From a virus, in IMG/VR virus record IMGVR_UViG_3300037502_002379, positions 1-64,000 of that record: a DNA stretch of 64,000 nucleotides; one strand, written 5' to 3'. The translations under genes and the position numbers were made by a program. The notes below the pieces were generated by a model, which saw only the letters and a program-made list of their open reading frames with translations, was not told the DNA's origin and did not search any database. Numbering within the stretch: position 1 is the first letter of the stretch; each line of letters starts with the position of its first letter. Below, piece after piece: positions 11,851 through 54,367 of this stretch.

Positions 11851-11854
11851 GTTA

Positions 11855-12676
11855 TTAAATAATTATTTTCTTAATAGGGCTTGCAGTGCCTAAAATATCT
11901 ACATCTGCTATCTTTATATACCCCGCAGTTGTATTTATATTTTTATGACCTGCAATTTTTTGTACCGTTCTTAAATCAACGCCATCTATTACCATTTGAG
12001 TTAAACAACTGTGTCGTAAAGAGTGTGATGATATTTTCTTTTTAAAACCTAATTTATTTGCAATAGACTTAACAAGTGTCTGTATGCTTTTTTCTGAATA
12101 CTTACCACCTTTAGCGCCCTCAAATAAATATGTTTTTGTTTGGTAAATTTTCCAATATTCCCTTAATAATTTTACAATGGCAGAATCAAGCATCACTATC
12201 CTGTCAACTTTTCCTTTCCCATTTTTTACTTGTATTTTATTATTAGAAGTATCTATGTCTCTAATTTTTAAATTTACAACCTCTCCTACTCTAAGGGCAC
12301 ATGAATACATTATACAAATAATAGCTTTATGCTTAATATTTTTTGTGTAATTAACCATTCGCTGAAACTCATCAACTGACAATACATCTGGTTGCTTTTG
12401 CTCAATTTTAGGTCGAGGCAATATTTTATTATTAAAATTCTTATCTAAACATAACCTGTAATAACACTTAAAGGCATTTATTACAGCCATTCTTGTTGAT
12501 GCAGAATAATGAGTTTTACTTAGCAAGTACATACGCAAATCATTTTCGGATATATCTTTAGCATCTTTATTAAAATGTTTTGAAACATTAGATACTATTG
12601 ATAAATAACTCCTTGAAGTTTTGCCACTAAAGTTTTTTAGAAACATCAATTCTTTAAAATCTTGCAATTTATCCAT
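11855..12676 (-). CDS. Tyrosine recombinase (Xer/integrase type)
   Basis: 273 residues. An N-terminal SAM-like core-binding domain (about 1-95) precedes a catalytic domain with the full set R129 (SCALRVGE), K156 (GKGKVDR), H218-R221 (HSLRH), H244 (AGHKN) and Y253 (TTAGYIKI). The C-terminal SPI ending recalls XerC- and IntI-like Bacteroidota recombinases, but the extra loop between the active-site lysine and HxxR that marks IntI is absent. It could integrate the phage, resolve its genome, or act on the attC-like cassette sites that begin 53 bases upstream of its ATG. Confidence 0.85.
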   Translation of the reverse strand: MDKLQDFKELMFLKNFSGKTSRSYLSIVSNVSKHFNKDAKDISENDLRMYLLSKTHYSASTRMAVINAFKCYYRLCLDKNFNNKILPRPKIEQKQPDVLSVDEFQRMVNYTKNIKHKAIICIMYSCALRVGEVVNLKIRDIDTSNNKIQVKNGKGKVDRIVMLDSAIVKLLREYWKIYQTKTYLFEGAKGGKYSEKSIQTLVKSIANKLGFKKKISSHSLRHSCLTQMVIDGVDLRTVQKIAGHKNINTTAGYIKIADVDILGTASPIKKIII

Positions 12677-12679
12677 AAT

Positions 12680-12688
12680 GCAAAGATG
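12680..12688 (-). promoter_or_regulatory. -7 element of the recombinase gene
   Basis: CATCTTTGC on the - strand lies three bases before the ATG, so the recombinase mRNA would be leaderless. The first base departs from TAnnTTTG. A perfect ACTAT/ATAGT palindrome lies about 30 bases upstream (12719-12731) between the last cassette boundary and this promoter and may be an operator or att core. Confidence 0.45.
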
Positions 12689-12728
12689 CTAATTATTTTT
12701 GATATACGCAATATTGGACTATATAATA

Positions 12729-12737
12729 GTTACCTGC
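12729..12737 (-). repeat. attC half-site (inverse core) after the C5 methyltransferase
   Basis: - strand GCAGGTAAC lies five bases after the methyltransferase stop codon and is the exact complement of the cassette's 5' boundary GTTACCTGC at 13739-13747. The rest of an attC stem is not visible, so this end of the block is truncated or has been replaced by the recombinase promoter region. Confidence 0.6.
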
Positions 12738-12742
12738 AAGCA

Positions 12743-13705
12743 CTACGGACGTTCTTCGATTAAGCATTTCGGTTCAGTTTTAAATAATTTTTTTTCCTCC
12801 ACTTTTAAAAAAGAAAAGATATGTTCAACTATTCCAACAGTCCATCCATCACCAATCAAATTGCCCGCCTGTGCCTTGTTTAAATTTCTTGTATATCCTT
12901 CGGGTATATTATGAAGCCTTTCAAGTTCCTTTTGTGTGCAATACCTCACTCCCTTACTTTCGTCCATTGTTTCGTCTGTATAAATGATTGTAGTCATTCC
13001 AGTAGTTGCGTAACGGTGCAACATATATCTTTGGTTTGCATCTCGGCCACAACTTGTATTTAAACAAGTATGTTTCTTTTTATCAGAATATCCGTATTCC
13101 AAAACATCATTTAACAGTATCTTTTTATCTCTCGGTTGTGGTATTGCACACTTTCTGTTTCCAAATAAATCAAAAGTTTCAGGCCCGATATTAGTCCAAA
13201 ACAATCTATCTCTCAATGCACCACTCACTCTACTTCCACAAAGTCTTACAGGTTCAGTTCCTAATAATTCAGATATTGTATTGTAGCCTAAATCATCCAT
13301 TATCACATTTTCAAGCAAATAGTAATCGGGTTTAGTTTCTTCGAGTAATCTTATGTATTCATAAAATAACATTGATTTCATTCCTTTTAATCCATCCCTT
13401 ACGCTATTTGCCCTACTAAAATCTTGGCACGGGCTACCTCCAATCAATAAATGTATTTTTGGCAAATCTTGGCCTTTCACTTTTGTAACATCTCCAATCT
13501 GAATAGTATCAGGAAAATTATCCATTGTGCATTGTATGGCGTGTTTCTTTATTTCGGCTGCATAATATCGTGTAGGTTTCAATCCTACATTATTAAGGGC
13601 AATTTGTCCGCAACTCATACCATCAAATAATGATAATACGTTAAATTCTTCGGCAAAGCCGTTTTTGCCATCCCTCAAAAAATTATTTAAAACTGTTTCT
13701 TTCAT
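12743..13705 (-). CDS. DNA (cytosine-5) methyltransferase
   Basis: 320 residues with the C5-MTase motif order: motif I LSLFDGMSCGQ (24-34), motif IV GGSPCQDFS with the catalytic Cys of PCQ (93), motif VI ENV (132-134), motif VIII RDRLFW, and a C-terminal region ending GNLIGDGWTV (motif X). The target-recognition region is short, as in Dcm/DNMT3-like phage enzymes. The expected role is to protect phage DNA from host restriction. No cognate endonuclease is adjacent. It is the cassette nearest the recombinase. Confidence 0.9.
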   Translation of the reverse strand: MKETVLNNFLRDGKNGFAEEFNVLSLFDGMSCGQIALNNVGLKPTRYYAAEIKKHAIQCTMDNFPDTIQIGDVTKVKGQDLPKIHLLIGGSPCQDFSRANSVRDGLKGMKSMLFYEYIRLLEETKPDYYLLENVIMDDLGYNTISELLGTEPVRLCGSRVSGALRDRLFWTNIGPETFDLFGNRKCAIPQPRDKKILLNDVLEYGYSDKKKHTCLNTSCGRDANQRYMLHRYATTGMTTIIYTDETMDESKGVRYCTQKELERLHNIPEGYTRNLNKAQAGNLIGDGWTVGIVEHIFSFLKVEEKKLFKTEPKCLIEERP

Positions 13706-13738
13706 CTAATTAGCTTTATCGTTTAATAAACCGTGCCA

Positions 13739-13839
13739 GCAGGTAACAAGGTATTTGCAAAATTGCCCATCAACATTGTGCTTAATTTGAAGTATCTGCA
13801 AGGGCAACTTCGCAAATACCCAAACGTTATGCCCAATGC
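13739..13839 (-). repeat. attC-like site A
   Basis: The outer boxes on the - strand are GGGCATAAC and GTTACCTGC. The stem GGTATTTGC-GAAG-TTGCCC pairs with GGGCAA-TTTT-GCAAATACC: 15 bp plus a symmetric unpaired block. The boxes do not match each other beyond TAAC/GTTA, but GCATTGGGCATAAC matches the 5' boundary of its own cassette at 14264-14277 in 13 of 14 positions. Length about 100 bp, within the attC range. Confidence 0.75.
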
Positions 13840-14234
13840 TAAGACAGCGTTCTGCCAAAACATGTGACTTTTTGACCATCTTCAAAATGACTTGCTTTTT
13901 CTAAAAGTTCATTCATAATGTCATTGATATTAAAATTATGTGAGAAACCCATCTCAATTTCATAGTTACCGTTTCGGTCAATAACACAACCCATTGCTTT
14001 TTCAACGCTTTCGGTTAATAGTTCTCGATAAAAATCTTTATCTATATTCAAATCCTTTACAATAATGTGTGTTGTGAATTTTCTACTTTGTATTCCACAC
14101 ATTGAAACTTCTGATGGGTTTCCATTTCCTAATTGAAACTGACCAAACATAAGCAAGTCATTATCATCACACCAATGGTAATCCTTTTCGTTTACATAAC
14201 CTTTCGGTCTTGAATCTGCTACAAATACTTTCAT
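13839..14234 (-). CDS. Cassette-borne unknown protein (131 aa)
   Basis: 131 residues. The N-terminus MKVFVADSRPKGYVNEKD, then DLLMFGQFQ and SMCGIQSRKFTTH, recalls DUF7715-like proteins, but I cannot confirm this. The C-terminal part is helical and acidic and ends GQKVTCFGRTLS. Its stop codon abuts the inverse core of site A, the usual arrangement in integron cassettes. The cassette runs from the GTTA box of site B to that of site A. Function unknown. Confidence 0.7.
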   Translation of the reverse strand: MKVFVADSRPKGYVNEKDYHWCDDNDLLMFGQFQLGNGNPSEVSMCGIQSRKFTTHIIVKDLNIDKDFYRELLTESVEKAMGCVIDRNGNYEIEMGFSHNFNINDIMNELLEKASHFEDGQKVTCFGRTLS

Positions 14235-14263
14235 TTTTCTGTTTTAAAATTGTTCAAAAAAAG

Positions 14264-14403
14264 CACTGGGCATAACACGTGTTTTGCGTTATGGTGGCTG
14301 ACGTGCTGAAATCAACCGCAGTAATTCTATTTGGCTTTAGTGCTATGCCGACAGTTAGTGCTACTAATCCGCCACAAACGCAAAGCACCTGAACGTTAGG
14401 CAC
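14264..14403 (-). repeat. attC-like site B
   Basis: The - strand boxes are GTGCCTAAC (canonical RYYYAAC; its TAA is the stop codon of the upstream ORF) and GTTATGCCC. The stem GTGCTTTGCGTT-x-TGGC pairs with GCCA-x-AACGCAAAACAC, 16 bp with small bulges. The terminal loop is about 70 bases and contains GTGCTGAAATCAA on the + strand (14303-14315), shared in form with sites C1 and E. Confidence 0.8.
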
Positions 14404-14659
14404 AATATGCTTTCCTGTATCGCTCAATTATGGTATCGTTTTCTGCAAATGGTAATGCTATCGGGCATGGGTGGTCAAAGTCAAAAAAACTTTCCTCTCC
14501 ACATTTACTACACTTGTAATGAACAACATTCCTTTCTTCAACATACACATCTCTGATAAATGATAAGTTTTTTTGCCCTTCATCATCTGTATCGCCACAC
14601 ATTTCATTTTTACATTTGCAGTAAACGAATGTTCTTTGGTTCTTCTTCCTAATCCGCAT
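14396..14659 (-). CDS. Cassette-borne zinc-ribbon protein (87 aa)
   Basis: 87 residues from ATG 14659. A longer frame from 14746 exists, but its first 29 codons lie inside attC-like site C1; the cassette boundary at 14671 makes 14659 the natural start. Two cysteine groups (CKCKNEMC and CSKC) form a likely zinc ribbon; the C-terminus is ERYRKAYCA. The stop TAA lies inside the GCCTAAC box of site B. Function unknown; a nucleic-acid-binding or Cas-like ribbon role is only a guess. Confidence 0.65.
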   Translation of the reverse strand: MRIRKKNQRTFVYCKCKNEMCGDTDDEGQKNLSFIRDVYVEERNVVHYKCSKCGEESFFDFDHPCPIALPFAENDTIIERYRKAYCA

Positions 14660-14662
14660 ACT

Positions 14663-14796
14663 GCTCCTAACATGGTATTTATGCCATGCCGTATTTAGTG
14701 CTTTAATCAAGTTTGTCATTCTATTTAGGTTTAAATTGTTAACCAACTTTTGTCTTTCAAATCGGCACGGACATAAATACTCGTCCCGTTATAAGC
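14663..14796 (-). repeat. attC-like site C1
   Basis: The - strand boxes are GCTTATAAC and GTTAGGAGC. The stem GTATTTATG plus CC-x-TGCCG pairs with CGGCA-x-GG plus CATAAATAC, about 16 bp with a bulge. The loop has GTGCTTTAATCAA (14698-14710), like sites B and E. The site overlaps the 5' extension of the neighbouring reading frame. Confidence 0.7.
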
Positions 14797-14893
14797 AAGT
14801 GGCTGTGGTTAAAGTTCAACATTCCGAACTCCTCCTGTGGTTATCGGAGGCAGTCTTTGAACTTTACCACTCCACAGCCACCAGACTTATAAC
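14788..14893 (-). other. ORF-less hairpin cassette
   Basis: This unit between sites C1 and C2 has no meaningful ORF. It folds almost entirely on itself: GTTATAAG, GTGGCTGTGG and AAAGTTCAA pair with TTGAACTTT, CCACAGCCAC and CTTATAAC, with an inner CTCC/GGAG hairpin. About 35 paired bases in a 106-base element. It could be an RNA-level element, a terminator-like spacer or a relic. A 21-codon frame behind GGAGGAG is possible but unconvincing. Confidence 0.6.
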
Positions 14894-15012
14894 ATGGGCT
14901 AAAACGCAATAGGCACGGAGTACCTTTCAGCATTTGTGATAGCATTGAACCACTTGTCCCGTTTAGTTCTGTATGCACACCTACTGCGTTTAGCCCAATT
15001 CCGTTATGCTCC
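14884..15012 (-). repeat. attC-like site C2
   Basis: The - strand boxes are GGAGCATAAC (its TAA is the stop of the 15004 gene) and GTTATAAGTC. The stem CCTA-x-TGCGTTTAGCCCA pairs with TGGGCTAAAACGCA-x-TAGG, with one extra A on one arm, like the extrahelical bases of attC sites. The inverse core matches its own cassette start GTTATGCTC at 15676-15684, nine of nine. Confidence 0.75.
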
Positions 15013-15189
15013 ATTGCTACGTGTCTGCTTCGATTTGAAATTTGTGGAAGTTTTTTGTTCTTTTTTCTCCCCACGCACAAGAAAAATCAAATGGTCTTGA
15101 ATAAAGTTTTTAAGGTCTTTATCTGCGTCAATAGCCATCTTCTTTAAGTCTTTGACTATTTCTTCGGGTATGTCAATTAGCTTTTTCAT
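15004..15189 (-). CDS. Small RHH/antitoxin-like protein (61 aa)
   Basis: 61 residues. LIDIPEEIVKDLKKMAIDAD, then KDLKNFIQDHLI, resembles the short strand-helix-helix of ribbon-helix-helix-type phage proteins, followed by a basic tail. It could bind DNA or act as an antitoxin or regulator. The stop codon is part of the attC-like site C2 box. Third gene of a three-gene cassette. Confidence 0.6.
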   Translation of the reverse strand: MKKLIDIPEEIVKDLKKMAIDADKDLKNFIQDHLIFLVRGEKKEQKTSTNFKSKQTRSNGA

Positions 15190-15192
15190 AGA

Positions 15193-15297
15193 TTATTCAA
15201 TACCCATACCATCGGATTTTTTGTAAATTATAATTCCAAAAATTACCCAAACTACTATTACAAATATAAGGGCTTGTCCTATTGTTATATCGCACAT
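15193..15297 (-). CDS. Small single-helix membrane protein (34 aa)
   Basis: 34 codons from ATG 15297, overlapping the 3' end of the 15285 gene by 13 bases. A hydrophobic helix of about 20 residues (QALIFVIVVWVIFGIIIYKK) ends in a positive YKK cluster. Toxin-like, holin-like or membrane-regulatory roles are all possible. The overlap with its upstream gene and three-base spacing to the RHH-like gene support it. Confidence 0.55.
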   Translation of the reverse strand: MCDITIGQALIFVIVVWVIFGIIIYKKSDGMGIE

Positions 15298-15533
15298 AAT
15301 TTCCTTTTTGCTTCAAATAAATCAAACATTTGTTCACCAGTTAGCGATAATGTAATTCTACCACCATCAGTGTAAGTGCCTGTAATTTCATCTTCTTCCA
15401 TTGCATCATAAACTTTAGAAAGTATCATTGCAATAGTTTCTAATTCATCCGCAGTTAATTTTTGACTGCGTTTTTTTGGCTGAGCGTCTAATGTGCTGTT
15501 GCCAATATTTCTTTCGTTAATTCTATATCCCAT
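15285..15533 (-). CDS. Small unknown cassette protein (82 aa)
   Basis: The start ATG 15533 is chosen because the longer frame begins upstream, inside the promoter region. 82 residues: KKRSQKLTADELETIAMIL, then DEITGTYTDGGRITLSLTGEQMFDLFEAKRK. Helical ends around a beta-hairpin. No recognised family. It is the first gene of a cassette that carries its own promoter, which is unusual for integron cassettes. Confidence 0.6.
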   Translation of the reverse strand: MGYRINERNIGNSTLDAQPKKRSQKLTADELETIAMILSKVYDAMEEDEITGTYTDGGRITLSLTGEQMFDLFEAKRKLCAI

Positions 15534-15556
15534 TTTATGTGGTTTTAAATTATATG

Positions 15557-15587
15557 CAAATATATGCCGTATATATGACATACGCAA
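15557..15587 (-). promoter_or_regulatory. Cassette-internal promoter
   Basis: On the - strand a -33 TTG (15585-15587), a 20-base spacer and a -7 TATATTTG (15557-15564). It drives the 82-residue gene and the two following small genes independently of the rest of the block. Confidence 0.6.
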
Positions 15588-15675
15588 GAAAAAAGTAAAA
15601 TATTTTTTGCCTACCCATAAAAAAAGAACAAAAACCTTGCTCCTATTGAAGTTTACTGCTAAAAATCCGCAACGA

Positions 15676-15775
15676 GAGCATAACAGCGGTTTTGCGTCAG
15701 GCGGGGTGCGGTGCTAACTTTGAACATTCGTGCTAATAAACCCGCCCGAACGCAAAGCCGCAAAACGTTATGTGC
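15676..15775 (-). repeat. attC-like site D
   Basis: The - strand boxes are GCACATAAC and GTTATGCTC. The stem GCGGCTTTGCGT-x-GGCGGG pairs with CCCGCC-x-ACGCAAAACCGC, about 18 bp. The inverse core matches its own cassette's start GTTATGTG at 16794-16803 rather than the GTTATGCTC box of the same site. Length 100 bp. Confidence 0.8.
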
Positions 15776-15794
15776 AATTTTCTTTTTCATTTTT

Positions 15795-16742
15795 TTAGCC
15801 AACGCTCAAATGATTTAATGATTTTTTGAATGGGTTATACTCATAATCTTCCCAACTGCACGAATTGAAGATTATCCTATTGTTTACATATCTTGTGTAT
15901 GCTTTTTGATACCTATCATCTTTATTGTATGGCATTACAAAAGGCTTACATCCCAATTTCCTTAAAAATTCAACTCTGTAATAATCTTCTTCGGGAGAAG
16001 TATCAAACCCAATTAAAACAAAGAATTGCATATGTTCGCAAGGTATTCCCCATTTATTACAGCGTTCAATACCTCTAATTATTACCTTTTCATCTTTGAA
16101 TTGGTCCCACGCAAATGTCAAGTATCGTTTGTTGAATTTTGAATTGTAATACTTCACTTTTGCTAATGCTTCTGCTTGTCTATCTGAAATAATGCGAATA
16201 TTCAAACCTTGAACAAAGCAAACTTTCAAATCAAGTTCTGCAATTCTATTCAAATTAGCTTCCCAATTTGTGCCACCAAAAAAATCATTATCCAAAAGCA
16301 TCAAGTTTTTACCGCCTGATGGGTTAGTGATAAGTTCGTCAATGGTATTGTAATTGTATGGTCTGCCTTCTTTTTTTGGCACACAACAAAAATCACATTT
16401 AAAACGGCATCCTTTCATTGAAAATCCATAATGAAAAGGAGTATTTGGATAAATCTCCCAATCCATTGGAGCATTTTCAATTTCAGCAGGTAGTTTGTTA
16501 TAAAAATCAATTCCAGTTCCACCAATCACCATATTTTCGGGTATTTGTGGCATTTCGCTAAAATTAAAAATCTTACTTGCATAAATCTTATCGTATTGAC
16601 TTGCAAACAATATTCCTTCATACCATTCGACTGTATCGCCAATAGATTTATGGTAAGCCGATATTTTCATAAGTGCAATATTTGGAAATTGTACTCCTTG
16701 ATAATCCGTTCCATCAACTTGATATATTGCTATTCGTGCCAT
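15795..16742 (-). CDS. Radical SAM enzyme
   Basis: 315 residues. The N-terminal part (1-70) resembles the small Rossmann-like domain preceding many radical SAM cores (ALMKISAYHKSIGDTVEW). The cluster motif CxxxCxxC is at C112, C116 and C119 (GCRFKCDFCC), followed by glycine-rich GGKNLMLLDNDFF. The target is unknown; in phages such enzymes often modify nucleotides or peptides. It occupies a whole cassette by itself (GTTATGTG/CACATAAC). A near-identical inverted stretch, TTTTCTTTTTCATTTTTT, flanks it at both ends. Confidence 0.8.
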   Translation of the reverse strand: MARIAIYQVDGTDYQGVQFPNIALMKISAYHKSIGDTVEWYEGILFASQYDKIYASKIFNFSEMPQIPENMVIGGTGIDFYNKLPAEIENAPMDWEIYPNTPFHYGFSMKGCRFKCDFCCVPKKEGRPYNYNTIDELITNPSGGKNLMLLDNDFFGGTNWEANLNRIAELDLKVCFVQGLNIRIISDRQAEALAKVKYYNSKFNKRYLTFAWDQFKDEKVIIRGIERCNKWGIPCEHMQFFVLIGFDTSPEEDYYRVEFLRKLGCKPFVMPYNKDDRYQKAYTRYVNNRIIFNSCSWEDYEYNPFKKSLNHLSVG

Positions 16743-16793
16743 AAATGATTTAATGATTTAATTGCCCACGCACAAAAAATGAAAAAGAAAACA

Positions 16794-16930
16794 GACACAT
16801 AACAGCACATTGCCAAAAGTGGCGATGCGGTGCTAAAATCAAGTGTAGTGCTTCTAATTATCATTTGTGCTATATTCAAAATTTGTACTTCTAATTCGCC
16901 ACCATCGGCAATCTGCAACCCGTTATATCC
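16794..16930 (-). repeat. attC-like site E
   Basis: The - strand boxes are GGATATAAC (its TAA is the stop of the 16923 gene) and GTTATGTGT. The stem TTGCAGATTGCC-x-GTGGCGA pairs with TCGCCAC-x-GGCAATGTGC, about 17 bp with two bulges. The loop has GTGCTAAAATCAA (16830-16842), as in site B. The matching 5' boundary (GTTATATCC) is not seen upstream, so this is the first, probably anchored, unit. Confidence 0.7.
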
Positions 16931-31696: not shown

Positions 31697-33369
31697 TACT
31701 TACGTTTTGCTTGTGGGTATTTCTTTAAAAAATCAGCTAATTTATCTTCGGGGATTTGTCCTTCTTTCCCATTCAATACAACCGTTATCATTTTTGGCTG
31801 CGCTTGCTTTTCAGGTTCGGTTTTGGGTTGTGGTGTTTGCTGCTGCTGAACACTTGGCGGCACTACACCTTGCTTTTCTGTTACAACAAAAGGTTTATCC
31901 ACTTTCGCATTGAACTTAGCAATGTCGCTTTCTGTGGTCTTGTAAATTTTACTGTAATCAATCTTGCCGTCTTTACCCAAAAACTTCTTAATGGCTTCGT
32001 TTTTAGATGCAATTAGTTTGTCTGAATCCTTGCCTTTGCCTTGCAAGTAAACATCTGTTAATTGTTCTGGTGTTGTTGGAATAAACGGACTATCTCTTAA
32101 TTTTCTTCTGTAAGCGTCAATAGTTTCGGTTGTAGCGTATTTCATAATTCCGTCCTTGCCTACGGTAACAAATTCAATCTTGTTTTCCGTAACAATAGGT
32201 TCACCGCTTTTATCTAATTGATTTGCAACAGTACCGTCATCTTGCGGAATTTTTGGTGTGTAGTTGCCTATTGGCGCACCAACTTTCTGCCCTAAATAAA
32301 ATCGCTTTTCTTTTGTTCTTGGGTCAACAAATTGCACACCTGCTAATTCCCTTGAATCTTTTTGGTATATCTTGGTCATTCTTGCCAAAAAGCCCAACGC
32401 ATCTTCCGCTTCTTTTGCGCCTTTAAAATCTTCAAAACGCATTTTATTGCGCAACTTCAATTCTTCTTTATCGGCTTCACTCATTTTAAGTTCTTTATAG
32501 GCTTTCTCATTTGTCTGCCTATTCATAAACTCTTGCATAACATAAAAAGCTGCCATCTCATTAGGGTCTTGAACATCAAACCCCATTGTCTTGGCTTCTT
32601 CCATATCAGATGCAGCTGTGCCATTTTCAATAGCCATCTTGTACACCTTAGTAGCGGAATTTCTTATGTTCTTAGTGTTATCCCTAAATGCTGACCTTGC
32701 AAAAGCCTTTGCTTGGTCTGGTGTTACATTTACCATTTCCGATACTTCATAATCCCTTCCATCTATTTTCTCAATAGAAGGCTTACCAACTTGCCTTTCT
32801 GCAAATGCACCTTTTTCAGTTGTAAATATTTCTCCTACCGCTTCTTGCAATGTAGGCTGTTTCTTTATCTTAAATAGTTCGGGTCTTAATGCGCCTCTTT
32901 GGTCAATAGGTGTTGTGCGAAGTTTTGCTGCCTTAGCCTTTAAATCGTCTATGTCGTCATCTTCTTTGATGCCTTTAAACATTTCATCAAGCGCATCCTT
33001 ATCTTGCTTAGAGGCGTTAAAAATGGTCTTATATTCCATCTCTGCCGCCTTTGCAGCGTCTAATGCTTCTTTGGCTTCTTGTGAGTTTGGTCTTGTTGAT
33101 AAAATTTGATATGCTCTGCTTCTTGCTTTTACGGCATTGTTAAAGGTATTTTTTATCGCTTCTGAATCTTCGGGTAAATAACCCGTATCTGCTTTCAAAT
33201 CACCTATCAACGCTTTGGCTTGTTCGGCTTTGGCTGCTTGTTCTTTTGCGGCACGTAGCTGTTCGCGCTCAATCCTATTAAGCGCGTCTTGTTGGGCTTC
33301 GTAAATCCCTGCGTCATACGGGTCTGCAACGCCTATCCCCGAAGTAGATGAAATATATCCTGCTGCCAT
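31696..33369 (-). CDS. Cargo/internal virion protein (557 aa)
   Basis: 557 residues, highly charged and mostly helical, with Ala/Lys/Glu coiled coils (REQLRAAKEQAAKAEQAKAL). A Pro/Gln-rich linker (PPSVQQQQTPQPKTEPEKQA) precedes the C-terminal VVLNGKEGQIPEDKLADFLK. Start and stop overlap both neighbours. By position between muzzle and the giant protein it is probably packaged and ejected with the DNA. Confidence 0.6.
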   Translation of the reverse strand: MAAGYISSTSGIGVADPYDAGIYEAQQDALNRIEREQLRAAKEQAAKAEQAKALIGDLKADTGYLPEDSEAIKNTFNNAVKARSRAYQILSTRPNSQEAKEALDAAKAAEMEYKTIFNASKQDKDALDEMFKGIKEDDDIDDLKAKAAKLRTTPIDQRGALRPELFKIKKQPTLQEAVGEIFTTEKGAFAERQVGKPSIEKIDGRDYEVSEMVNVTPDQAKAFARSAFRDNTKNIRNSATKVYKMAIENGTAASDMEEAKTMGFDVQDPNEMAAFYVMQEFMNRQTNEKAYKELKMSEADKEELKLRNKMRFEDFKGAKEAEDALGFLARMTKIYQKDSRELAGVQFVDPRTKEKRFYLGQKVGAPIGNYTPKIPQDDGTVANQLDKSGEPIVTENKIEFVTVGKDGIMKYATTETIDAYRRKLRDSPFIPTTPEQLTDVYLQGKGKDSDKLIASKNEAIKKFLGKDGKIDYSKIYKTTESDIAKFNAKVDKPFVVTEKQGVVPPSVQQQQTPQPKTEPEKQAQPKMITVVLNGKEGQIPEDKLADFLKKYPQAKRK

Positions 33370-37300: not shown

Positions 37301-39221
37301 TGCACCAATGCGAAGCAAGCCTTATGACGTGCCTTCCTGCGGGCAACTCCAACTCAAAAAAACTAAGCAGGTCTAAATCTTGGTCAGAAGGATTGGCTAT
37401 TTTATCTTGCAAAAAATCTCTATACCTATCCCTGCCTGCCGTAGATGAAAAGTCAATAATGCCGTTATCAAGCTGCGACAACTGCGCCCTGCTTATTTGT
37501 TTCGACACCGCAAATGTGTCTGTACCTGCTGCGTAAGCAACAAACCCTCCTTCTGGCAAGTATTGCTGCATGATAACAGCAACTTGTGTTGGGCTTAAAG
37601 TTTGTGTGCCTGGATTGTTTTCTATGTAAATATCACCACCTGCAACAATTACTCCACCAAACATAGGAATATTGCTTTGTGGGTCTTCGGGGTCATCCTC
37701 GTTTATCGTGGCGTTCTGTATCTGCCAAATCGGAGCGTTTGCTTTTGACGAAGGGTTTATTGTTTTTGACATTCCAAATGTAACGGCAGGACTATTCATT
37801 AAGGTTGGCTGATAAATTCTTACACCGCCCGTTACCTTATACAATTTCTTTTTTTCTAAATCATCAACATTAACTGTCAAGTTAGCATCAACACAATCGG
37901 GTGCGTCATACCCTTGCAATGCGCCACCCGTTACCAATCTGCCTTGTGTAAATGTTAAAGCATTAGCCTTGCGCGGAACGTTGTCAAACGGCACACTAAC
38001 CAAACTATCCGATACGGCTGCGGTTATTTGGTCGTTGTAAAAGTCATATTCGGCTGATACATTAACACCGTCTGTTGTATAAAAATCGCATGGTTCAAGA
38101 GTTACCACATCGCGCCACAATCCTTCGTTTCCTATACGATACAGCACCCGTACTGATTTTAACACTACCCAATTATTTGTGTTAATAACATCTGAATTGT
38201 TAAAATCAACTTTGATGTAATTAAACAACTCGTAGTTTTGGTCGTTGCAGCTAATGTTGTTCAGCCCGATATTGCTGATAGGCGACAACTTACTTTCTTC
38301 GTTATTGTCATAGATATACTGCAACCTAAATTGCCATACGTTGTTTTTAACAAAGTTAGATTGCCTTTCGCTGTCTTTACGCCATTCGTAGGTCGGCTGA
38401 AATGCAGGTATCCACTTAATTAAATCAAAGTATCTGTCAATCAAATTCAGCCCGTACCAATTATCTGCAACTACTTTATAGTTGCTGTTACCTGCAAAAT
38501 CAAAATAGACTTGATTAGTTCCCGTTTCGGTAACATTCAAATCGCATCCGCAACTTTCGGCTGTCAGATAGTTTTGTGAAGCATTGATGTCGTTGGCTAT
38601 TTGCTCAAATGCTTGTTCGCGTGTCAAGTTACCAACAAATGAGAACACCCCTGCAAACACTTGGTTGCCGTCCATATCGTATATGTTCCAACCCCATGAC
38701 TGAAACGGCTGCACATAGTTCTTAGGAAGATATACTTTCCATGATTTTTGCTTTTCGGTAATGTTGCCTTTAACCACGTTTATCATACGCGGCTTTACGC
38801 TGTCTGTCCAATACAGCAACTTAGCATCTACCAACTCTACACCCGTAATGTGTTCTTCATCGCTCCAGCCGAAATCGAATGTGATTATCTCTTGTATCGT
38901 TCCGTACGGATAGGCATTGCTTGTTTTACTTGGATAGTAGCGCAGTATCTTATGCTGCCCTTGACTGTTATAGACAAAGTATATGGTTGTGTTTTCGCCT
39001 CTGTCAAAATATGTTCCTATGCACTTGTTAATACCGCTTGGCAAAGTGTAGTTATCAATCAGCACATTGCCTTTGATATTGGTAACAACACCAAACTGCT
39101 TTTCATATCCTACGCTGTTGCTTATGTTAAGCGCATATCTGTAATCTTCGGGCGCTAATAGTCTGTTTTCGCTGTCGCTGTCTATGCCACCAATAGGACG
39201 ATTTTCGGTTTGTTTGTGCAT
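34386..39221 (-). CDS. Tail tube/muzzle-like protein (1611 aa)
   Basis: 1611 residues, beta-rich. The N-terminus ENRPIGGIDSDSENRLLAPE, then DYRYALNISNSVG and GVVTNIKGN, resembles the large muzzle/tail-stabilising proteins of crAss-like phages. A middle segment (GRVVDANGEPVFANLVYTNG) looks like a carboxypeptidase-regulatory-like beta domain. It should form the short tail below the portal rings. The -7 TAACTTTG at 39227-39234 is six bases before the ATG. Confidence 0.7.
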   Translation of the reverse strand: MHKQTENRPIGGIDSDSENRLLAPEDYRYALNISNSVGYEKQFGVVTNIKGNVLIDNYTLPSGINKCIGTYFDRGENTTIYFVYNSQGQHKILRYYPSKTSNAYPYGTIQEIITFDFGWSDEEHITGVELVDAKLLYWTDSVKPRMINVVKGNITEKQKSWKVYLPKNYVQPFQSWGWNIYDMDGNQVFAGVFSFVGNLTREQAFEQIANDINASQNYLTAESCGCDLNVTETGTNQVYFDFAGNSNYKVVADNWYGLNLIDRYFDLIKWIPAFQPTYEWRKDSERQSNFVKNNVWQFRLQYIYDNNEESKLSPISNIGLNNISCNDQNYELFNYIKVDFNNSDVINTNNWVVLKSVRVLYRIGNEGLWRDVVTLEPCDFYTTDGVNVSAEYDFYNDQITAAVSDSLVSVPFDNVPRKANALTFTQGRLVTGGALQGYDAPDCVDANLTVNVDDLEKKKLYKVTGGVRIYQPTLMNSPAVTFGMSKTINPSSKANAPIWQIQNATINEDDPEDPQSNIPMFGGVIVAGGDIYIENNPGTQTLSPTQVAVIMQQYLPEGGFVAYAAGTDTFAVSKQISRAQLSQLDNGIIDFSSTAGRDRYRDFLQDKIANPSDQDLDLLSFFELELPAGRHVIRLASHWCSFGDVLGKGGIYDLRSGRSYQQTSTNVYGVDDSPIGGAWKGGVGEIVVEVTNSDVYIGEFVVQDMVLWRQLPNNSGDGYFKVATGYLYDANGAVGVEDLQSAISVERSLVTFDSAPNIEYNRCVTDHNGYFFTSDYDTQSIRILADQVSATPNAPTALRQGGDVIYRDTQTSALWALKNGTLTPYSASSATIWNNTIFISDDFNDLIIPVTNTLARLTCSSVITGRVVDANGEPVFANLVYTNGRLATQDNLGNFRLIAWGSRWQNGYINSNNRIFDNLIFGGTDFCTIVYDNGAIENIQFTEFGTNATTTPPPFSPTAKFDVGTVIATDSGNIITKSEKRGSFKRFGLRYSDEAGRYTTVIPVADIYIPFITEPLDAIGQIGVFKDGAANISWTLQSAAPSFASTYQWMRTKDRIYGKQLSWICSDVQYLALTSYDVDGTTELPEILTSFEAGGYTSIKVSITNIVDYYRLNNSSLVTYEFDAGDRLRLVADKNGVRYEQLIDFEIVNYETTTQTVILRNNGVNVEIESGCMIEIYNSLLGAETEEETWYEIGECYDVVNGQHSVTSGTFEGGDSYFRYRKVPVFEAGSASKYYVDIFECKTISDFYESEDEDIGRTGLVTDSLNQIFRPTLLQHSNLYLPNTQINGLSNFEPANEKELSLSYGELFRLVPVENTLISIHSKKIVSSYLKRQLLIDAEQASSLVASAEEFFGTDNPYMQDWGTQHAESVFFWNGYIYGADQRMTLVWRRANDGLNAISDYKAKSLFKSELVGRTSIIGQFDEYKNEAVFTLIGGTPAKTIAFFEPKNRWTTFYSFTPEAYGQSGNNIVSFVSGRIWLHDRSATYNNFYGVQAVSELWYIVNTENIAPKVWQAMYLEILNTANTNNWTIYEISNDNGQLSRIDKSSFVKKEAYWHSSFKRDLNTVAVSNPIINGRAMRSNMIVVKMRNDGNDLETLKGIVTAYQVSERITF

Positions 39222-39255
39222 GGCAGCAAAGTTAAAAAATGTGAATGACTATATT

Positions 39256-40047
39256 CTATCTTTTTGGCGATTGGCTGAATGTTGCCAAATATGTTTGTTT
39301 CCAATCAAATGCGGTCATGGCTGCACTTCTTGCTCTAAAGCCTTTTAACGCTTGCGTGTAGTCTTGGTAGTATGGTTGCAAACTCAAACGTGTTGATAGG
39401 TTCGGGTTGTGTTTTTGTGCGCGGTAATGTACTGCGGCTTGCAATACGGGGATTGCACTTTCGGGTACTAATGTGCTATCGCCTTCCAATCCATCACTTT
39501 GATATTCCATGATAACTTGTTGGCTTCTTATCCAACTGTCAAAGGCTATAATACGCTGCTTTAAATCAATTTTAAAGCCCCCACGATATACATTACCACC
39601 GTAGCCGTAAAAGCCTCCGTAAAACGTACCGTCAAGCCATGTAGGATAGCTGTACCACCACAAGCCCCAACCAAAACCACCTGCATTGTCTAAGTTGCCA
39701 TTGCAGCCACATAGCATTTCTTGTTGTGCTTGCTGCGAAGGACAATCGCACCCTGCACTGTTTAAATTGATATTTCCTAAAATACGTTCGTTATATGATA
39801 GGTTCATAAACACTCCGTTGCAATTCACACCGACCTTAATAAAGTCAATGTAATCATCAGGCAGATACGCAATGTTGTTTTCGTTTATTTCAAGTATGGT
39901 AGTTGTGTTGCTGATAGGTAGCAATCCCGATAAACGTAGCTGTCTGTATTCGTCAATAGCATACTTGACAAACTTGCGGTACAGCGACATATCCTCTGCG
40001 CCTATATCCGCTAAACACGATTTTGCTATGTATCCTATGTTCTTCAT
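39256..40047 (-). CDS. Head-tail connector/ring protein (263 aa)
   Basis: 263 residues. An N-terminal helical part (MSLYRKFVKYAIDEYRQLRL) is followed by a Gly/Tyr-rich insertion (NAGGFGWGLWWYSYPTWLDG; YGGFYGYGGNVYRGGF). Position immediately upstream of the muzzle gene suggests a ring protein of the tail. It shares a base with the next gene, so translation is coupled. Confidence 0.6.
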   Translation of the reverse strand: MKNIGYIAKSCLADIGAEDMSLYRKFVKYAIDEYRQLRLSGLLPISNTTTILEINENNIAYLPDDYIDFIKVGVNCNGVFMNLSYNERILGNINLNSAGCDCPSQQAQQEMLCGCNGNLDNAGGFGWGLWWYSYPTWLDGTFYGGFYGYGGNVYRGGFKIDLKQRIIAFDSWIRSQQVIMEYQSDGLEGDSTLVPESAIPVLQAAVHYRAQKHNPNLSTRLSLQPYYQDYTQALKGFRARSAAMTAFDWKQTYLATFSQSPKR

Positions 40048-53499: not shown

Positions 53500-53508
53500 G
53501 TTATACGC
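53500..53508 (-). repeat. attC half-site of the adenine-type methyltransferase cassette
   Basis: - strand GCGTATAAC is the exact complement of GTTATACGC, the box of site F at 54289-54297 that opens the methyltransferase cassette. It is followed by a stretch that also occurs after the half-site at 56081. The rest of the attC stem is absent. Confidence 0.55.
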
Positions 53509-53576
53509 AAGGGCTACATTCCGTCTCCGTTTGACAATTTCGTGTTCAAAAAAAAACAAAAAATTTCCCCACGCTT

Positions 53577-54233
53577 CTAAAATAATGTAGTTTGCATTTG
53601 TTCATTCTCTAATCGTTTTAATCCTGCCAAATAATATTCCTCTACTAATTCACACCCAACAAGGCTAAACTTCTCCCTATGGCAAGCAATCGCAATCGAA
53701 GCACTTCCCAAGTGAGTATCTAAAATCAAATCGCCTTCCTTTGCATAGTTTTGTAATATCCATTGGTATAGTTGTATTGGCTTTTCTGTCGGGTGTATGC
53801 GTTCTTGCTTGTTGCCCATATTTTGCTGTATAAATCCGTGCCAAGTCCATTTAAAAGTCCTTACAGCAGTATCAAAAGAAGTCCAAGCAAGTTCAGCATC
53901 AGCAAAATATCCGCCTACTTTGTTTTTATCCCAAACAAGCCAACAACTACTATTTTTATTTATCCGTTCAATAAAGTGGTTTGCCCCCCAAATGATTTGA
54001 TTTTTAGATACTCTCATTAGTTCGTCAAAATAAGCCTTGTCAGGTGCTTTTTTATCCCAATCGTATTTAGTGTATTGCTTTGCCTTTCCTGCTCCGTCAA
54101 TACCTATTTTACCGCCATCCATATCAATTCCGTATGGTGGGTCAACTATTGCTAAATCAAAATGTTTGTCAGGGTATTTAGCCATAAGTTCCATATTGTC
54201 GCAATTAAATAATTCTATTTTCCCTTCGCTCAT
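53577..54233 (-). CDS. DNA methyltransferase (N6-adenine or N4-cytosine type)
   Basis: 218 residues. Motif IV DPPYG is at 31-35 (LAIVDPPYGIDM); the FxGxG-type cofactor region is represented by LILDTHLGSASIAIACHREK near residue 175. The order (DPPY first, cofactor site last) is the beta class. It should methylate phage DNA against restriction. The cassette is bounded by GTTATACGC and GCGTATAAC. The sequence motif cannot tell adenine from cytosine. Confidence 0.85.
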   Translation of the reverse strand: MSEGKIELFNCDNMELMAKYPDKHFDLAIVDPPYGIDMDGGKIGIDGAGKAKQYTKYDWDKKAPDKAYFDELMRVSKNQIIWGANHFIERINKNSSCWLVWDKNKVGGYFADAELAWTSFDTAVRTFKWTWHGFIQQNMGNKQERIHPTEKPIQLYQWILQNYAKEGDLILDTHLGSASIAIACHREKFSLVGCELVEEYYLAGLKRLENEQMQTTLF

Positions 54234-54288
54234 TTTTTGTTTTTTTTGTTTGTGCTACTAATTAAGTTCCTACTAAATAACCGCCCCA

Positions 54289-54367
54289 GCGTATAACACG
54301 GGTTTGGCGCAATTTTCCCAACGCACAAGCCGACACACAACTGCGCCAAGCCCGAAAACGTTATCTC
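54289..54367 (-). repeat. attC-like site F
   Basis: The - strand boxes are GAGATAAC (its TAA is the stop of the epimerase gene) and GTTATACGC. The stem CGGGCTTGGCGCA pairs with TGCGCCAAACCCG, 12 of 13. Compact, about 79 bp. The opening box matches the far end of the downstream methyltransferase cassette (53500-53508) nine of nine. Confidence 0.75.

Follow-up and report, generated by a model that had tools for sequence, protein, structure and literature searches.

The window, by which we mean the whole 64,000-base stretch of DNA analysed (a 64,049-base virus record minus 49 bases), carries on its minus strand the gene for a XerA-like tyrosine recombinase, an attI-like junction directly upstream of it and an array of six cassettes, each containing a long attC-like hairpin (Table 1). 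The grammar of these cassettes was recognised by reading the strand: all six start (R') with GTTNNNNNN and end (R'') with its reverse complement, wholly or nearly. The recombinase and the cassette genes share their reading direction, as the first-pass annotation of this DNA had stated; the recombinase also adjoins the last cassette boundary as claimed there, at a distance of 52 nt (from boundary 12729 to the ATG) instead of 53 bases. The short cassette 3 measures 215 bp, is devoid of a clear ORF and contains a second long hairpin.

Table 1. Position and composition of the recombinase gene, the attI-like junction and the cassettes in the window.
Feature	Position	Strand	Details
Whole block (array, attI and recombinase)	11851-16921		Absent in close relative L003
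Recombinase gene	11855-12676	-	XerA-like tyrosine recombinase, 273 aa, proposed cassette integrase
attI-like junction	12677-12737	-	GCAGGTAAC (12737-12729)^TATTATATAG..., plus 52-nt leader to ATG; motif recurs in relatives
Cassette 6, adjoining attI	12729-13825	-	Hairpin 13745-13828; C5 methyltransferase ORF 12743-13705; ends GTTACCTGC/GCAGGTAAC
Cassette 5	13826-14394	-	Hairpin 14274-14397; ORF 13839-14234 (DUF7715); ends GTTATGCCC/GGGCATAAC
Cassette 4	14395-14787	-	Hairpin 14669-14790, overlapping start of ORF 14396-14746; ends GTTAGG/CCTAAC
Cassette 3, short	14788-15002	-	Hairpin 14891-15005; ends GTTATAAG/CTTATAAC
Cassette 2	15003-15766	-	Hairpin 15682-15769; ORFs 15285-15587 and 15004-15189; ends GTTATGCTC/GAGCATAAC
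Cassette 1, far array end	15767-16921	-	Hairpin 16801-16924; radical SAM ORF 15795-16742; ends GTTATGTG/CACATAAC
Solitary cassette	53500-54359	-	Hairpin 54295-54362; methyltransferase ORF 53577-54233; ends GTTATACGC/GCGTATAAC

A hairpin scanner based on the pattern AAC-stem-loop-stem-GTT and run on the minus strand assigned scores of 22.4-30.2 to the six attC-like sites between 16924 and 13745, compared to 19.1 for the best other site on the same strand in the 8-20 kb region. Across the whole window, one more site on this strand reaches 21, and it belongs to the solitary cassette, at 54362. Single-strand folding of four window hairpins against shuffled sequences gave a clear result for two of them (z = -2.5 and -2.9) and not for the other two (z = -1.1 and -0.1); Rfam and tRNA searches of the window returned no matches, and repeat finding in the window recovered weak families only. 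The methyltransferase of the solitary cassette shares 65% identity with one carried on a cassette of G007, a backbone-related record described below. The stop codon of the gene before it is the insertion point of this cassette (TGAGATAAC), whose occurrence suggests insertion at secondary sites.

The recombinase is the sole PF00589 match in the record (E = 1.5e-39). Pfam and the structural model described below indicate a SAM-like, core-binding N-terminal domain and a catalytic domain only, the N-terminal arm-binding domain being absent from the 273-residue protein. Its catalytic set comprises R129, K154, H218, R221, H244 and Y253, with the lysine placed by alignment with XerD and IntI4; the first-pass annotation had named the same five other residues and had put the lysine at K156, which the XerD alignment amends to K154. 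The R-K-H-R-H-Y residues are present in all 118 rows compared, which represent 87 different proteins, 31 tree representatives having been entered twice. The protein reaches none of the curated NCBIfam cut-offs for XerA_Arch (188 bits, cut-off 220), XerC (151, cut-off 335), XerD (151, cut-off 330) or the integron integrase TIGR02249 (142, cut-off 265).

The IntI-specific loop is missing, as had been noted from the sequence at first pass, both in the short distance between the catalytic lysine and histidine and in the predicted structure. This distance spans 59-67 residues in the family (median 64), compared to 106 in IntI1, 105 in the IntI of Shewanella phage M16-3, 68 in XerC and 72 in XerD, and IntI4 is about 43 residues longer between the positions of K154 and H218 (in an alignment obtained in two pieces). 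An AlphaFold2 model calculated from 15 family members (mean pLDDT 86) resembles both XerA (5hxy; Foldseek E 5e-15; Z 22.1, rmsd 13.7 over 261) and IntI4 (2a3v; Foldseek E 2e-14; Z 21.6, rmsd 4.6 over 264), and a search of this model for the I2 helix found no helix between 165-178 and 195-209. The enzyme being without I2, the hairpin must be recognised in another way. Between the catalytic lysine and histidine, the family shows a conserved FNGQ...YS region (A3), which is the foremost candidate for the part that takes over from I2.

Using the ERF protein of the window phage as a query, we identified 31 related phage loci. In L003, whose ERF protein is 97% identical, the flanking genes are adjacent save for a small ORF in place of the block. 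Locus L004 carries different cassettes at the same place, with no recombinase gene after them in an incomplete contig; its array (L004:795-1110) terminates in an attI-like TAACTATCAATATA, and it has perhaps lost its recombinase. A reading of the dcm cassette (cassette 6) as one without attC at its recombinase side was rejected: the same junction is found in L004, L010 and L034, and then in the Freya phages, and we therefore regard it as attI-like. The dcm protein of L010, 94% identical to that of the window, lies between different attC-like hairpins, and the cassette ends display a compensating change (TTACCAGC/GCTGGTAAC in L010 versus TTACCTGC/GCAGGTAAC in the window).

A PF00589 search of 26 backbone-related records returned a single match over the cut-off, in G007, the record that contains L010 and thus the shared dcm array, and a match below it in G006. 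The G007 recombinase is 37% identical to that of the window, and the two ends of the contig overlap, with identity over 110 bp on the left side of a junction and over 117 bp on its right side and with one end having an extra 399-bp cassette, comprising a hairpin and an ORF, between GCTAAC and TATACTATG. This junction lies 51 nt before the recombinase start. The two states place the crossover at the sense-strand AAC and thereby fix the polarity: attI adjoins the recombinase and attC lies at the far end of the cassette, as in integrons. Single or few cassettes with 6/6 complementary ends occur in L007, L011, L018, L022, L026 and L033; a PF00589 search of the first four gave no match, and L013 and L024, also flagged for cassettes, are doubtful. 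The lytic Polaribacter phage P12002L (L042) has hairpins of the same grammar at 32492-32924 and 39123-39709 (minus strand), and a search of this phage for a recombinase of the window family found none.

Scanning viral_contigs with the window recombinase alone detected no relative, and with the Leef recombinase alone it detected Leef and one more. Searching IMG/VR with an alignment of five recombinases yielded 156 relatives, of which 80 were kept, together with L132 and L133; recombinases shorter than 240 aa (L053, L077 and L126) were left out. Clustering at 90% identity gave 62 clusters, and the loci scored are the 48 with at least 1500 bp upstream. At least one attC-like site lies upstream of the recombinase in 46 of the 48 dereplicated loci and at least two in 42 of 48 (mean 3.5), compared to at least one site downstream in 4 of 46 loci and at least two in 0 of 46. 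Six of the 48 loci have fewer than two upstream sites, and L058 has zero sites and no attI. Co-occurrence, which the first-pass annotation had proposed as a check, is thus borne out, the family not being equally common without such sites. When applied to Shewanella phage M16-3 as a positive control, the scanner recovered the classical attC sites, and the strand control yielded other-strand hairpins as well, as expected of symmetrical stems.

An attI-like site, defined as a 9-mer ending in AAC, located 25-115 nt before the start and having a 6/6 complement upstream, is present in 38 of the 48 loci, compared to 1 of 48 after shuffling and a background of 6 of 46 in the downstream control. Its distance to the start is 51-52 nt in 20 of the 38 positive loci, and the half adjoining the recombinase often reads TAYTATATGTA. 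Consecutive cassette ends are at least 5/6 complementary in 73 of 130 pairs, versus a mean of 5.4 and a maximum of 12 under random re-pairing. The attI 16-mer TAACTAYTATATGTAW occurs in at least 120 stretches of viral_contigs; among the matches listed, 28 are followed on the same strand by the recombinase (in 27 cases at a predicted 52-112 nt), 13 lie too near a contig end and 79 have no recombinase and look like chance, indicating that the motif alone is not specific.

Loci with 100%-identical recombinases reveal where the arrays change. Their DNA is identical as far as 61-69 nt before the start and then breaks at TAAC^TATTATATG (the caret marking the junction), to which different first cassettes are joined in L080/L085/L088, in L081, in L082/L087/L089 and in L083; likewise, L130 and L131, whose recombinases are 100% identical, diverge at TAAC^TATTATATATACA. 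Freya_1 to Freya_10, phages of one Polaribacter strain whose recombinase is annotated "integrase" and is 34% identical to that of the window, present seven array forms in ten isolates, joined to one attI. From a common anchor to the recombinase, the arrays measure 868 bp in Freya_1, about 1710 bp in Freya_2 to Freya_4, 2612 bp in Freya_5, 3084 bp in Freya_6 and the identical Freya_7, 4908 bp in Freya_8, 5503 bp in Freya_9 and 5810 bp in Freya_10. Those of Freya_1, Freya_2 to Freya_4, Freya_5 and Freya_9 coincide with Freya_10 over its first 822, 1660, 2566 and 5457 bases with zero mismatches, that of Freya_6 tracks Freya_10 over about 2570 bases before a cassette of its own, an inner block of Freya_10 is missing from Freya_8, and one cassette separates Freya_9 from Freya_10. 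All seven forms have AAC^ACCCCTATAAC beside the recombinase as their common junction (in Freya_2 to Freya_4, the joining side rests on gene position and on the start of Freya_1), and the same gene is preceded by AAC^GCCCCTATA in Leef_1 and by AAC^ACCCACATA in Ingeline_1. The junctions are exact in the seven Freya forms, in G007 and in the L070-L089 and L130/L131 groups, and homology between the units exchanged is limited to about 3-5 bp (AAC or TAAC) at the crossover.

A bacterial control, performed with a closer alignment, returned 26 bacterial contigs, of which 24 loci were scored. The attI motif is found among them at the three nearest recombinases (52-70% identity), which lie on MAG contigs named Chitinophagales, Flavobacteriaceae and Bacteroidales; L136 has five sites, L135 one and L134 none above threshold. 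Among the 21 remoter loci, two have two sites, one has a low-complexity 6/6 attI and none has both. A recombinase gene on a Flagellimonas plasmid has two hairpins upstream. The Bacteroidota genomes G030, G031, G032 and G028:C138 encode a chromosomal relative that scores 289-310 bits against the family profile, above the XerC/D-like genes of the same genomes; no array was found beside the chromosomal relatives examined, and the phage enzyme may derive from such a relative. A careful tree of 51 recombinases, from which two long-branch rows had been left out, places the 34 array rows on one side of a branch and XerC/D, two IntI and 12 other recombinases on the other. The phylogeny envisaged at first pass sets the array recombinases apart on a branch of weak support (29/85). 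Holding the array recombinases and the two IntI as one clade gave a p-AU of 0.057; with deep branches weak, the array recombinases may be older than IntI, sister to IntI or separate.

Across 168 sites, the cores are TAACG[GT]T and TGTTA, with 4-5 unpaired bases after AAC and usually one before GTT, and the hairpins span 49-322 nt (median 122). The classical sites of M16-3 likewise show AACG and TGTT on the recombinase strand, so that this asymmetry agrees with attC. A conserved extrahelical base was looked for in the 168 sites and none was found, the two arms having 89 and 94 bulges, with a small cluster (20) at stem position 12 of the AAC arm. With no single conserved bulge and a model devoid of the I2 helix, looking for extrahelical-base pockets, as had been proposed, proved uninformative for hairpin recognition. 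The longest cassette ORF lies on the recombinase strand, reading towards the recombinase, in 127 of 133 cassettes and on the other strand in 6, and the cassette genes of M16-3 diverge from intI; given this orientation towards attI, a Pc promoter reading from the integrase/attI side could not serve the phage ORFs. Among the 20 largest cassette proteins scanned, ten match DNA methyltransferases (four C5, six N6/N4), two TET-associated glycosyltransferases, one radical SAM and one PAPS reductase, and six have no match. The two glycosyltransferase cassettes (L099:1924-2799 and L084:3623-4486) represent DNA hypermodification as exchangeable cargo.

Comparisons between genomes establish, at the level of sequence, an attI-attC grammar, its fixed place beside one recombinase family and cassette-exact gain, loss and exchange at attI. 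We propose that the recombinase serves as integrase in an integron-like system carried by the phage, a reading to which the sequence evidence leads us to assign a probability of roughly 0.88. A new type of recombinase acting on attC-like hairpins had been one of three options raised at first pass, and it is the one that array co-occurrence and attI-exact exchange support. Outward from the gene, the order would be recombinase, attI-like site (about ACATATARTAG^TTA) and [cassette-attC]n, and the enzyme would join the attI-like site to attC-like hairpins at the common (T)AAC/GTT core, cassettes entering and leaving beside the recombinase's own gene. Circular cassettes, or attC strands exposed during phage replication, would fold; the enzyme would bind the hairpin R box and the attI core; and one strand would be exchanged at AAC/GTT and then resolved by replication. 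The cutting would probably be done by the window-family enzyme, and attC would be used as a folded single strand, presumably the ORF-sense strand; the strand exchanged and the resolution step are similarly conjectural, and the outcome of exact cassette exchange at attI is read from the genomes. Phages may use the system to swap DNA-modification genes against host restriction. We read the system as an integron variant and not as IntI, and consider it likely, with less confidence than the role of the enzyme, that it constitutes a second integron class in Bacteroidota phages, with a Xer-type enzyme that is devoid of I2 and recombines attI and attC hairpins, with antisense cassettes and with swappable DNA-modification genes; this class would be either a pre-I2 survivor or an independent invention.

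For Freya, Leef and Ingeline, the integrase led the original describers to infer that a temperate life is possible (Bartlau et al., PMC8776804); the main text, as available to us, does not contain the words "integron" or "cassette". Their reading, together with the "integrase" annotation in phages, would make the enzyme an ordinary lysogeny integrase that happens to adjoin a cassette array, and a double role in lysogeny and cassette movement may exist. As the sole role, we deem it very unlikely, because the attI-to-start distance is fixed in the majority value reported above (20/38), arrays lie upstream in 46/48 loci, the arm-binding domain is absent and cassettes change exactly at attI with the recombinase unchanged. 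This last observation also tells against the plain phage integrase considered at first pass, and the fixed attI beside the recombinase family, with the arrays upstream of it, against the enzyme being a bystander.

Cassettes also occur in records in which no recombinase was found (L004, an incomplete contig, P12002L and several backbone relatives), which may reflect a recombinase acting in trans or the activity of a different enzyme. In the latter case, cassettes would be moved by a host integrase (classical IntI) or that of another phage, the window enzyme being irrelevant or a helper. Solitary cassettes in several relatives and the ability of IntI1 to recombine, in E. coli, five of the six phage attC sites assayed (PMC9892861) are consistent with this account, which is nevertheless very unlikely, since attI adjoins the recombinase in a position kept across the family and one survey found IntI to be rare in Bacteroidetes (PMC9024848). 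Finally, hairpins can promote deletions and the nested Freya arrays resemble successive losses, but junctions generated by homologous recombination or polymerase jumping at hairpins, with no site-specific enzyme, are scarcely conceivable given crossover homology of so few bases and exact junctions in all the groups listed above.

The accepted account holds that gain of the I2 helix let integron integrases recombine single-stranded attC, with intermediates lacking (PMC7790495); it can be tested directly on a widespread recombinase family that has an integron layout and no I2. In surveys, an integrase is recognised by PF00589 together with the IntI-specific domain (PMC9668308), a definition by which the family could be overlooked: such surveys would miss it, and its arrays would be reported, if at all, as integrase-less clusters. 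The "integrase" genes behind the inferred temperate lifestyle of Freya, Leef and Ingeline (PMC8776804) would acquire another meaning, and the data suggest cassette-wise exchange of DNA methyltransferases and other DNA-modification genes by some phages. Cultures exist of both the Freya phages and their host, which leaves the idea open to immediate trial. A search of the open-licence literature, preprints being outside its scope, found no account of phages with a cassette recombinase other than IntI, which is not proof of absence. Phage attC arrays are known, and what appears to be new is a non-IntI partner recombinase with attI and antisense cassettes.

Clusters of attC sites (CALINs) have been described in phages, with methyltransferases and in one case in a Polaribacter phage (Qi et al. 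2023, PMC9892861); these authors sought IntI and, in the available part of their article, report no integrase for the phage clusters. Unlike CALINs as described there, the window-type system includes a non-IntI recombinase and attI. It resembles IntI integrons (class 1, and the M16-3 control) in having the 5' end of the recombinase gene at attI followed by [cassette-attC]n, complementary cassette ends and the AACG ... TGTT asymmetry on the recombinase strand. Features that define integrons are likewise present, namely attI beside the integrase gene, RYYYAAC ... GTTRRRY cores with complementary ends and a stem and, as genome comparison indicates, cassettes gained and lost at attI. In contrast with IntI, the phage family is without the insert (59-67 versus 105-106 residues from K to H), its hairpins span 49-322 nt (median 122), its cassette ORFs read towards the recombinase (127/133) instead of away from it as in classical integrons, and, unlike in integrons with Pc, a promoter from the integrase/attI side into the cassettes could not serve them. 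In fold, length and catalytic residues, the enzyme is similar to XerA, XerC and XerD, which resolve chromosome dimers at dif; unlike the phage family, the 21 more distant recombinase loci include none combining at least two sites with a 6/6 attI. A precedent is the CTX phage: host XerC/XerD, Xer enzymes that lack I2, integrate it at a folded single-stranded site. Unlike the phage cassette system, however, CTX uses host enzymes and moves the phage genome rather than cassettes.
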